NCBI GenBank assembly: GCA_015520045.1
Contig: WAQW01000041.1
Location: 1 to 41,452, forward strand
Length of the DNA: 41,452 bases
Direction: 5' to 3'
Origin: Thermoplasmata archaeon
GTDB taxonomy: Archaea; Thermoplasmatota; Thermoplasmata; Thermoplasmatales; Thermoplasmataceae
In this document: positions 38,342-41,145 of the stretch, piece by piece
How the letters are laid out: the number at the start of each line of letters is the position of its first letter
How positions within the stretch are numbered: position 1 is the stretch's first letter
The notes under the pieces: generated by a model
What the model was told of the DNA's origin: nothing
The model's input: only the letters and a program-made list of their open reading frames with translations
The model's database searches: none
Program-made: the position numbers and the translations under genes

Positions 38342-39112
38342 ATGATGGAAGGGATCAGGTTCGCTATACTGTCAAGTGGGAGCAAAGGAAATTCTGCGCT
38401 TGTATGGGATTCCTTCTCCACCATCATGATAGATGCTGGCATCTCTTACAAGAGATACCGTGAATCTCTTTCGCATCTTGGAATAAGACCACAGCATCTA
38501 TCGCTGTTTTTAACACACGAGCACACGGATCACTCATCTGGTCTTAGAACGCTGATAAAGAGGGAGGATCTCGATATATATTCCAGAAAGGGGACGCTTG
38601 AGTATCTTTCACTTGACGGAGATTTTTACATCGTTGATCGTGAGTATGTGGGTGATTTTGAGATCAGTGCCATCGGGATAAGCCATGATGCGGTTGATCC
38701 GGTAGCCTACATCATCCGCCACTCGGAATTCAAGATAACCATTGCTTCTGATATGGGTGTGGTTGGTGGCGCCCTTCTCAGAGAGGCAAAGGGCTCGGAC
38801 ATCCTCGCGTTTGAATCAAATCACGATGTGGAAATGCTCAGAAATGGTAGATATCCATACTTCCTTAAGAACAGGATAATTAGCGATTCAGGGCATCTCT
38901 CCAATAGTCAGAGCTCGGAGGCCATAAGCAAGATGGTGGAACCCAAAACTAGGATTATCTTGACACATCTTAGCGAGGAGAACAACAGGCCTGATATTGC
39001 TCTGAATACTGTTCGAGGATATCTGGAAAATCGACATATTGGGTATAGATCATTGGAGACCGCCTCACAGTGGAAGATAAGTGCCTTTTATCATCTGGGC
39101 AGATCAGATTAA
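38342..39112 (+). CDS. Metallo-beta-lactamase fold hydrolase (YycJ/WalJ-like)
   Basis: A 256-residue enzyme with the binuclear-metal motif THEHTDH (58-64), the opening LSSGSKGNSALV of the YycJ/PhnP-like branch, and the conserved FESNHD and SDSGHLSN segments. Members hydrolyse phosphodiesters; some are DNA or cyclic-phosphate nucleases. No signal peptide. TTATTAAT at 38317-38324 is about 25 nt before the second of two adjacent ATG codons (38345), which may be the true start. The tRNA-Gln promoter overlaps its stop codon. Confidence 0.88.
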   Translation: MMEGIRFAILSSGSKGNSALVWDSFSTIMIDAGISYKRYRESLSHLGIRPQHLSLFLTHEHTDHSSGLRTLIKREDLDIYSRKGTLEYLSLDGDFYIVDREYVGDFEISAIGISHDAVDPVAYIIRHSEFKITIASDMGVVGGALLREAKGSDILAFESNHDVEMLRNGRYPYFLKNRIISDSGHLSNSQSSEAISKMVEPKTRIILTHLSEENNRPDIALNTVRGYLENRHIGYRSLETASQWKISAFYHLGRSD

Positions 39113-39116
39113 ATAT
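39109..39116 (+). promoter_or_regulatory. TATA box of the tRNA-Gln transcript
   Basis: TTAAATAT overlaps the preceding gene's stop codon and is centred 25-26 nt before the tRNA 5' end at 39138. No further TATA box lies between the tRNA and the following coding region. Confidence 0.6.
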
Positions 39117-39137
39117 CCGTCTTCAATCGGATACAGG

Positions 39138-39210
39138 AGCCCCGTGGTGTAGTGGCCAAGCATGCCGGACTTTGAATCCGACGACGGCAGTTCGAATCTG
39201 CCCGGGGCTG
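39138..39210 (+). tRNA. tRNA-Gln (UUG)
   Basis: A 73-nt cloverleaf: acceptor AGCCCCG/CGGGGCT with G discriminator, anticodon loop CTTTGAA giving UUG, T stem GGCAG/CTGCC with loop TTCGAAT. CCA is not encoded and there is no intron. It ends nine bases before the ATG of a SAMP/Urm1-like gene with no oligo-T terminator between, so the two are probably on one primary transcript. Confidence 0.95.
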
Positions 39211-39219
39211 TGGTGCAAT

Positions 39220-39414
39220 ATGATTAGAATAATTGGAAAAGAGAAGAGGGAAATACCACTGGAGAAGGCAGCATCTGTTGGTGAGATAGCTGAGAAGCTG
39301 GGCATAAGCAGCGTTAAATTTGTTTCTCTCCTCAACGGAAATCCTGTAACATCGGACAAAATTGTCAATCCCGAGGATGAACTTGTCTTTATGGAGGCTT
39401 TCTCGGGTGGATAG
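39220..39414 (+). CDS. Ubiquitin-like sulfur carrier (SAMP/Urm1/MoaD/ThiS type)
   Basis: A 64-residue beta-grasp protein ending Ser-Gly-Gly, the C-terminal di-glycine activated by an E1-like enzyme. It has the order typical of ThiS/MoaD: a first strand (MIRIIGKEKREIP), a helix (SVGEIAEKLGI), and the second half LLNGNPVTSDKIVNPEDELVFMEAFSGG. It could supply sulfur for tRNA 2-thiolation, thiamine or molybdopterin, or act as a protein modifier. A GGTG site at 39212-39215 precedes the ATG by four bases. A frame extending upstream through the tRNA is rejected. The last 26 bases, encoding the essential tail, overlap the 3' end of cca on the other strand. Confidence 0.85.
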   Translation: MIRIIGKEKREIPLEKAASVGEIAEKLGISSVKFVSLLNGNPVTSDKIVNPEDELVFMEAFSGG

Positions 39415-40696
39415 GAACCACCCTGGAGAAGTATTTCGTGAGAACCTCAAACTCCTCTGAGGGAGAAGGCTTCAGGATAGAAAGCTTCGACTTCACGGGG
39501 TTAAGGTTCTTCCCAATGTTGCGTTTTCCTATTCTGTTAAGGATATATTCCTCAACACTCTCGGGTTGCGTTGGAACCTCTACGAACAATCTATCCCCCA
39601 GAAGATAGGGACCGAGTGCTCTCTCGTTTCCGATCCACTTTTCTATGAAGTCGTGGGTTCTCTCTGAATCCGCAGGCGGACCCCGGTGGATTCTGAATCT
39701 GGGAGATTTGAGAAACCTGAGCTCCACGAGTATATCGATCGATTCGCCCATGTGAATCTCACTGCCCAGGGGAATGAAGCCACCGTCATCGAGAAGCTTC
39801 ACAAGGATCCTCCTGAATTTATCGACCTGTGGATATAATGTGTCAGGAACGGCATCAACCAGTGGGAGCCTGAATATTCTGAAATGGGTACCTCTCTCCA
39901 TCGGGACCTTTTTCCGTGTTCTGGTGCCAAAGAAGAACTCGTCCGAAGGGTTAAGAAGAAACTCTCTTGATGCAATCTTCATCAGTGAGAGGTTCTCCAC
40001 GCTCACGGCAGCGGCGGCGTTCCTTTTTCCATCCACAGGATCAACTATCACAACGGGATCTTTGAATTTTCTGATCGCTCCATCAGATATGATATAACGG
40101 CCTTTCGTCTGTGAAAACGATCTGATGGTCTCAATGAAGTCTCCATTCCTGATTATCAGGAGTTCACACACGTATCCAGAAAATCCTTTCGTTGAAACCT
40201 CTGATCCGTAAATACCGAGATGTTTCATAAAGGCTTTCAATAGCCTTACCTGCGACTTTTTTTCTTCGGGAAGGGCCTCAAGGATGTAGCGGGTGTGAAG
40301 AGGACTTCTATCAACAGCTGTGATGATTGTCTCCCCCTTTTTTATGCGGTAACACGGAACAATGTCAACCTTTATCCCTGACACGCTCCCCGTCACATAT
40401 GGATGTTCCGCGTACCTTTCTGTTCCGTTGCTGAGGACCCTGTGGCCTATCCTGAGGGATGTTGAAACAATAAAGCTTTTCTCATACTTCCTATCGAATG
40501 AAATAAAAATGTCAATATCTGGGTCGAGGAACGTTCCCTTGGAGACTGACCCAACCAGCAGAGGTTCTGCCTGAATCCCATCTCTCTCAAGTTCGATCCT
40601 TATCTTTGATATGAGATCCTGTGAGACCCGGCTGAGTTTTCTGCTCAGCTCTTCGTCGGGGAGAAGGCGCCTTTCAATCTCGGATAGATCAATCAT
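39389..40696 (-). CDS. cca: CCA-adding tRNA nucleotidyltransferase (archaeal class I)
   Basis: Adds or repairs the CCA 3' end of tRNAs without a template. It has 435 residues. The nucleotidyltransferase signature Gly49-Ser50 plus Asp60-x-Asp62 (LDPDIDIF) and the third carboxylate Asp112 (KVDIVPCY) are intact, followed by the archaeal-type all-helical and tail domains. None of the three tRNA genes in the window encodes CCA, so the enzyme is needed. The start overlaps the NAC stop by four bases. The C-terminal residues (HPRKPP) are encoded antisense to the SAMP-like tail. Confidence 0.95.
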   Translation of the reverse strand: MIDLSEIERRLLPDEELSRKLSRVSQDLISKIRIELERDGIQAEPLLVGSVSKGTFLDPDIDIFISFDRKYEKSFIVSTSLRIGHRVLSNGTERYAEHPYVTGSVSGIKVDIVPCYRIKKGETIITAVDRSPLHTRYILEALPEEKKSQVRLLKAFMKHLGIYGSEVSTKGFSGYVCELLIIRNGDFIETIRSFSQTKGRYIISDGAIRKFKDPVVIVDPVDGKRNAAAAVSVENLSLMKIASREFLLNPSDEFFFGTRTRKKVPMERGTHFRIFRLPLVDAVPDTLYPQVDKFRRILVKLLDDGGFIPLGSEIHMGESIDILVELRFLKSPRFRIHRGPPADSERTHDFIEKWIGNERALGPYLLGDRLFVEVPTQPESVEEYILNRIGKRNIGKNLNPVKSKLSILKPSPSEEFEVLTKYFSRVVPIHPRKPP

Positions 40697-41055
40697 TTTT
40701 CGGTCGTCAGATCGACGATTGCCTGGGCAACCTCGCCTTCGGCCTTCTTGAGGGCCTCCACTGCCTTCTCTCTGGACACCCCGGCCTGCTCCATCACAAG
40801 TTTTACATCCTCATCGGGAAAAACCGGTTCATCGGTTCGTGCGGATGATTTGGGAATCTCCTTGAGATCTCCTGTGATCTGAAAGGACTTCTCTCCACGC
40901 GCCTCAATAAGCACAACGTGGGCATTTGATATGATGTAGTCTTTACTGTCCCCATGAAGGGTTACTCTCTTTACATCATTCATCTCAACCGTCTTTATGC
41001 CCATCTGGGCCATCATCCTTCTCATTTCTCTTGAGTTCAACTTTCCCGGGATCAT
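40693..41055 (-). CDS. nac: Nascent polypeptide-associated complex protein (NAC alpha)
   Basis: A 120-residue archaeal NAC homodimer subunit that binds nascent chains at the ribosomal exit. The NAC domain includes MGIKTVEMNDVKRVTLHG and SFQITGDLKE (about 20-75), and a UBA domain ends the protein (EDVKLVMEQAGVSREKAVEAL). The start at 41055 is chosen because an upstream extension of 53 codons would read through the promoter and a tandem repeat. The TATA box AAATATATT on the minus strand (about 41081-41090) gives a leader of only a few bases. It overlaps cca by four bases and forms an operon with it. Confidence 0.93.
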   Translation of the reverse strand: MIPGKLNSREMRRMMAQMGIKTVEMNDVKRVTLHGDSKDYIISNAHVVLIEARGEKSFQITGDLKEIPKSSARTDEPVFPDEDVKLVMEQAGVSREKAVEALKKAEGEVAQAIVDLTTEK

Positions 41056-41080
41056 ATGGTGGTTAATGATCACTTTCGAT

Positions 41081-41095: not shown

Positions 41096-41145
41096 TGTGG
41101 ATGTGTTGGTTTAGCGGTTGTGTGGATGTGTTGGTTTAGCGGTTG
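41096..41145. repeat. Exact tandem duplication of a 25-bp unit
   Basis: Bases 41096-41120 are repeated without change at 41121-41145; the unit begins TGTGGATGTG and ends TAGCGGTTG. It lies directly upstream of the nac TATA box. Identity of the two copies points to a recent duplication. Confidence 0.9.

Follow-up and report, generated by a model that had tools for sequence, protein, structure and literature searches.

A tRNA-Gln(UUG) gene lies directly upstream of, and on the same strand as, a gene for a SAMP2/ThiS/TtuB-type beta-grasp sulfur carrier in 43 of the 46 genomes that we surveyed in one family of Thermoplasmatales. We consider it probable that the two genes form a dicistronic unit on the tRNA promoter, that tRNase Z would make from it a carrier mRNA with a short leader, and that the carrier serves U34 thiolation by NcsA. 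If so, the pair would be a naturally occurring example of a tRNA and its predicted modifier coming from one RNA, in an arrangement that is kept family-wide and in which the open reading frame (ORF) almost touches the tRNA. An earlier sequence-only reading of this DNA had made the same observation, which is confirmed; its interpretation, that a tRNA and its modification factor share one transcript and have their doses linked, is partly supported.

Anatomy of the junction

The junction lies in a stretch of 41,452 nucleotides (the window), contig C41 of a source genome that is incomplete (76 per cent). The features at and around the junction are as follows.

38345..39112, + strand: metallo-beta-lactamase-fold hydrolase (Lactamase_B_2), the upstream neighbour (Pfam)
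39109..39116, + strand: TATA-like element TTAAATAT, sole candidate promoter ahead of the tRNA and SAMP genes (sequence)
39138..39210, + strand: tRNA-Gln(UUG), CCA not encoded (ARAGORN, tRNA-Gln(ttg); Rfam tRNA model, 59.6 bits)
39211..39219, + strand: 9-nt spacer TGGTGCAAT with a GGTG Shine-Dalgarno-like core, the predicted mRNA leader after tRNA 3' cleavage (sequence)
39220..39414, + strand: 64-aa SAMP2/ThiS/TtuB-type beta-grasp sulfur carrier with C-terminal Phe-Ser-Gly-Gly (Pfam SAMP2 and ThiS; AlphaFold)
39389..40696, - strand: archaeal CCA-adding enzyme, convergent to the SAMP gene (NCBIfam cca_archaeal, 393.5 bits, over the cut-off)
40693..41061, - strand: nascent polypeptide-associated complex (NAC) protein, upstream of the CCA-enzyme gene and on the same strand as it (NCBIfam TIGR00264)

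The sequence-only reading had described one TATA box at 39109-39116, then the tRNA, a nine-base gap with a GGTG ribosome site, and the ATG of a 64-residue protein ending in Gly-Gly, with neither a promoter nor an oligo-T run between tRNA and ATG. This description holds: ARAGORN finds the tRNA, the ORF at 39220-39414 ends in FSGG, the GGTG core is present in the spacer, TATA-like sequence occurs only before the tRNA, and there is no run of four or more T between the tRNA and the carrier ATG in the window. The TATA-like element is situated approximately 22-29 nt before the 5' end of the tRNA and overlaps the stop codon of the metallo-hydrolase ORF, which ends at 39112, an overlap absent from that description. 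The acceptor stem of the tRNA is AGCCCCG/CGGGGCT, its discriminator base is G39210, and the carrier ATG at 39220 is 9 nt past this base. On the other side, the CCA-enzyme and SAMP genes share 26 nt at their 3' ends. Two tandem copies of a 25-base direct repeat (TGTGGATGTGTTGGTTTAGCGGTTG) lie upstream of NAC, at 41096-41145 of the window.

Conservation of the linkage within the family

The family comprises 19 genera, and the survey covered 46 of its genomes with a SAMP match. The synteny search for tRNA-Gln beside ThiS/MoaD-like genes that the sequence-only reading had suggested was strongly positive: the 43 linked genomes represent 18 of the 19 genera. That reading had named a lack of the linkage in relatives as grounds for refutation, and on this point the claim stands. 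Within the family, the linkage is missing only in Thermoplasma (genus g5), which retains SAMP, NcsA and E1 without it and has PAC2 upstream of the SAMP gene in place of tRNA-Gln; it was not found in other families of the order. Two candidates for the position before the Thermoplasma carrier gene were rejected, namely an intron-containing tRNA-Gln, because an intron-permissive tRNA search found none, and prefoldin, because Makarova and Koonin (PMC2948915) identify the gene as PAC2.

The spacer between the tRNA 3' end and the carrier start codon is only 1-3 nt long in genera g9, g18 and g19 and about 6-18 nt in most other linked genomes. One genome has 18-24 nt, according to which start codon is used, and three others have 118, 167 and 206 nt. 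In genome G006, a listed spacer of 29 nt is an artefact of a tRNA-Gln masked by N, and inspection by eye gives 11 nt. The SAMP ORF of genome G048 appears broken at its start, probably through an assembly error.

On an RpoB tree rooted on another family (f3), the linkage needs two changes. We interpret them as a single origin at the family's base and a single loss, in Thermoplasma; the three genera with the shortest spacers form one monophyletic clade. RpoB branch lengths indicate deep divergence within the family. A scan of 400 genomes of the class for the exact pattern of a tRNA 3' end followed by ATG returned only three matches outside the family (G058, G063 and G113), where the longest downstream ORF is 26 aa, and among the 80 loci listed in the tRNA-Gln pattern scan a SAMP match stands behind the tRNA in at least eight. 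The junction is more than chance, because it recurs in so many genomes of the family and the pattern outside the family is followed by no ORF of more than 26 aa.

The neighbours of the pair put this conservation in perspective. The upstream metallo-hydrolase is kept in 14 of the 46 genomes, so the tRNA-SAMP linkage does not need it, and the convergent CCA enzyme adjoins SAMP in 38 of the 46; the linkage survives both replacement of the upstream neighbour and absence of the CCA-enzyme neighbour. A convergent SAMP-CCA pair needs no co-expression, yet it is kept in most genomes, and synteny is therefore generally conserved here. With a background this high, conservation alone is no proof of selection.

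Evidence for a single transcript

A promoter motif learned from the upstream regions of 67 other tRNAs was scored before tRNA-Gln and in the matching interval before the carrier ATG. The TATA-like motif scores higher before the tRNA in all 38 loci (medians of 5.0 versus -2.6 bits), a count to be read with the caveats that tRNA bodies are GC-rich, so that a missing TATA inside them is partly trivial, and that the linked loci are related by descent and hence not independent. The score at the window locus is modest (3.4 bits before the tRNA versus -3.9 before the ATG). Runs of five or more T within 60 nt downstream of the tRNA occur in none of 39 linked loci, an absence partly due to the coding sequence that follows; such runs follow 9 of 34 other tRNAs in the source genome and 15 of 33 in a second genome of the survey (G009).

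Where the spacer is 1-3 nt long, a separate promoter of the ORF could only lie within the tRNA. The three long-spacer genomes have AT-rich, TATA-like stretches inside the spacer, as would be expected if a new promoter had arisen there. Because TATA-like elements are otherwise found only before the tRNA and oligo-T terminators are absent, a dicistronic transcript is by far the most economical explanation, and it is very likely that tRNA-Gln(UUG) and the carrier are expressed in this way. The proposal that the two are co-transcribed and that processing releases an mRNA with a very short leader is strongly supported by the comparison, through the shortest spacers in three genera, the motif scores and the lack of oligo-T. 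We infer both the co-transcription and the tRNA 3' cut in these organisms from sequence.

The tRNA-Gln(UUG) gene does not encode CCA, so its 3' maturation needs tRNase Z and the CCA enzyme. The latter is encoded in the window, and all six of the genomes searched encode tRNase Z (RNase_Z model, above its cut-off). This enzyme cleaves behind the discriminator and leaves an RNA with a 5'-phosphate. In the mechanism that we propose, the tRNA promoter would drive a dicistronic tRNA-mRNA unit of tRNA-Gln(UUG) and the SAMP2/TtuB-like carrier, from which RNase P and tRNase Z would excise the tRNA. Cleavage by the latter behind the discriminator would leave a carrier mRNA starting UGGUGCAAU-AUG, with a 9-nt leader that contains the GGUG Shine-Dalgarno core, and the same cut in g9, g18 and g19 would produce an mRNA starting 1-3 nt before the AUG, that is, a leaderless one. 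Co-transcription of tRNA and mRNA has an archaeal precedent in Thermococcus kodakarensis, in which a tRNA-Lys is located within the 159-nt 5' UTR of TK0306 (PMC4247193).

The carrier, its partners and its predicted target

The sequence-only reading had described the protein as a Urm1/SAMP-like carrier, and the profile matches, the fold and the terminal Gly-Gly support its assignment to the SAMP2/ThiS/TtuB type. Specifically, it scores 29.6 bits with Pfam SAMP2 (cut-off 27) and 27.9 bits with Pfam ThiS (cut-off 22.5), above both thresholds. It falls short of the NCBIfam SAMP2 equivalog (19.9 bits; cut-off 70) and so is not a strict Haloferax-type SAMP2. The predicted structure is a beta-grasp fold (AlphaFold pLDDT 87.9), whose best Foldseek match in the PDB is TtuB of the TtuA-TtuB complex (TM 0.84, E 2.7e-4), with MoaD, SAMP2 and ThiS among the next matches. 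The C-terminal FSGG is invariant in 22 aligned family members; a few carriers of the family have one extra residue beyond Gly-Gly.

Partners for thiolation are encoded as well, in keeping with the pathway that had been proposed for the carrier. The genome has a single E1-like ThiF-fold protein (C21:3964-4656), located in a moaA-moaD-E1 cluster, and one NcsA/Ncs6-type thiolase (C48:3720-4025), whose nearest solved structure, 6scy, is a U34 thiolase. The thiolase matches the U34 thiolase of Methanococcus maripaludis with 224.7 bits versus 153.9 bits for the U54 enzyme TtuA PH0300, and it does not reach the NCBIfam NcsA equivalog cut-off (227.8 bits; cut-off 500). The link between carrier and NcsA is not universal in archaea: methanococcal NcsA probably functions without a carrier of this kind.

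In Haloferax, thiolated tRNA-Lys(UUU) depends on SAMP2, UbaA and NcsA, and the same requirement has been proposed for tRNA-Glu(UUC) and tRNA-Gln(UUG) (PMC4048286). Given these data and the E1 and NcsA-type thiolase encoded here, tRNA-Gln(UUG) is by analogy a reasonable predicted substrate of the carrier in these organisms. The carrier would be thiocarboxylated by the single E1-like enzyme and would most likely give its sulfur to NcsA for U34 2-thiolation in tRNA-Gln(UUG), tRNA-Lys(UUU) and tRNA-Glu(UUC). As a separate observation, a tRNA-Ile(GAU) gene directly follows ncsA in two genera (on C48 of the source genome and in G009), both genes having the same orientation; the tRNA begins approximately 65-75 nt after the profile match ends.

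Other tRNA-first units

In a scan of approximately 36 tRNAs of the source genome and 35 of G009 for further tRNA-first units, two were found. A tRNA-Lys(UUU) gene precedes rpoH by 11-19 nt, followed by rpoB, in 31 of 31 loci of a first set and in 12 of 12 further loci of the family, Thermoplasma included (C45:40000-42100 in the source genome). The same tRNA lies 19-70 nt before rpoH in families f4, f5 and f6 and is not found there in f3. The RNA polymerase operon thus appears to be headed by a tRNA. In 25 of 30 genomes of the family, a tRNA-Gln(CUG) gene precedes a gene for a DUF1940 protein (PF09155), with a spacing of 6 to more than 100 nt (on C36 in the source genome); among these 30 genomes, the pair is missing in Thermoplasma and in one genome of g19. 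In the survey of the order, DUF1940 was found only in this family, bar one sub-threshold match. Neither the rpoH-rpoB nor the DUF1940 product has a known thiolation role, and two of the three tRNAs that head such units are of the s2U34 type. Sharing of tRNA promoters, combined with tRNA punctuation, may be a general rule in these organisms.

Alternative explanations

Because their partners lack a known thiolation role, the additional units favour a general tendency to exploit tRNA promoters and excision. The carrier may accordingly be one of several genes that stay behind a strong tRNA promoter for the promoter itself and for a defined 5' end, the identity of tRNA and protein being coincidental. 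This explanation, which we regard as a serious contender that falls slightly short of an even chance, keeps co-transcription and differs from the thiolation unit proposed above only in its reason. It draws on the tRNA-Lys(UUU)-rpoH-rpoB loci, in the family and beyond it, and on the tRNA-Gln(CUG)-DUF1940 pair, but leaves unexplained why the predicted modifier of tRNA-Gln(UUG) follows exactly that tRNA. With approximately 3 of some 45 tRNAs being s2U34 substrates, coincidence would amount to about 1 in 15, a figure judged post hoc; the match of SAMP and substrate is either selected on top of the general habit or a coincidence. Under the thiolation unit, linked expression or coupling of the doses of substrate and modifier may bring a benefit; Thermoplasma, whose carrier, NcsA and E1 are kept in the absence of the linkage, counts against this. 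A stronger version, which we think unlikely, would make the unit self-adjusting: maturation of tRNA-Gln(UUG), through the tRNase Z cut that would create the leaderless start, would yield one carrier mRNA per tRNA and match the dose of the modifier to that of its substrate, and the tRNA-Lys(UUU)-RNA polymerase layout would extend the coupling to s2U34 tRNAs and the machinery of gene expression more widely.

The wide retention of the convergent CCA-enzyme and NAC neighbours would also fit a block that has merely stayed unrearranged, in which SAMP is transcribed from a weak promoter of its own, located in the tRNA or immediately ahead of it. We consider this quite improbable, since spacers of 1-3 nt leave room for a promoter only in conserved tRNA arms, without TATA-like sequence, and since the junction has been kept through changes of its outer neighbours and through deep RpoB divergence. 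It is also conceivable, if rather doubtful, that the carrier is mainly a protein modifier (sampylation, with a proteasome route) or serves U54 sulfuration as TtuB does, its link to the tRNA being incidental. TtuB, the carrier of a U54 system, is its best structural match; the Thermoplasma gene stands behind the proteasome assembly chaperone PAC2 (PMC2948915); and Urm1 of Sulfolobus acidocaldarius conjugates to a protein and does not support thiolation in yeast (PMC12645042). However, the NcsA encoded here resembles the U34 thiolase more than the U54 enzyme TtuA, Haloferax SAMP2 is needed for thiolated tRNA-Lys(UUU) (PMC4048286), and one carrier may have dual roles.

Relation to known systems

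The closest functional likeness is to the SAMP2-UbaA-NcsA system of Haloferax volcanii, with which the genome shares a SAMP2-family Gly-Gly beta-grasp carrier, one E1-like enzyme and an NcsA-type PP-loop thiolase; in the excerpts of that report, no tRNA gene is described as linked to samp2, whereas here the carrier follows its predicted substrate tRNA (PMC4048286). Thermus TtuB-TtuA offers the best fold match and is likewise a sulfur-carrier system for tRNA, but Thermus TtuA acts on U54 of many tRNAs, whereas the enzyme here is nearer to a U34 thiolase.

Co-transcription of tRNA and mRNA is also known from the E. coli tRNA-tufB operon, and in mitochondrial tRNA punctuation the excision of tRNAs defines mRNA 5' ends. 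These cases and the tRNA-Lys-TK0306 transcript of T. kodakarensis (PMC4247193) share with the present one a tRNA heading an mRNA or an mRNA 5' end set by tRNA excision; the present one differs in its family-wide conservation, in an ATG as close as 1-3 nt to the tRNA, and in a protein predicted to modify that very tRNA. We found no report of a tRNA-Gln/SAMP or tRNA-rpoH linkage in Thermoplasmatales in the open literature. A 1992 paper on Thermoplasma RNA polymerase genes may have noted a tRNA there.

The arrangement makes testable whether tRNA processing generates archaeal leaderless mRNAs, as in mitochondrial tRNA punctuation, and whether the doses of modifier and substrate are tied. Makarova and Koonin (2010, PMC2948915) connected archaeal ThiS-type genes with tRNA modification enzymes and, for Thermoplasma, with PAC2; the term 'tRNA gene' is absent from their main text, and the Thermoplasma carrier, orthologous to the present one, belongs to the sole genus of the family without the tRNA-Gln linkage. 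For the ThiS-type carriers of Thermoplasmatales, which the literature that we found had linked in Thermoplasma only to PAC2, the junction provides family-specific gene-context support for a role in tRNA modification.
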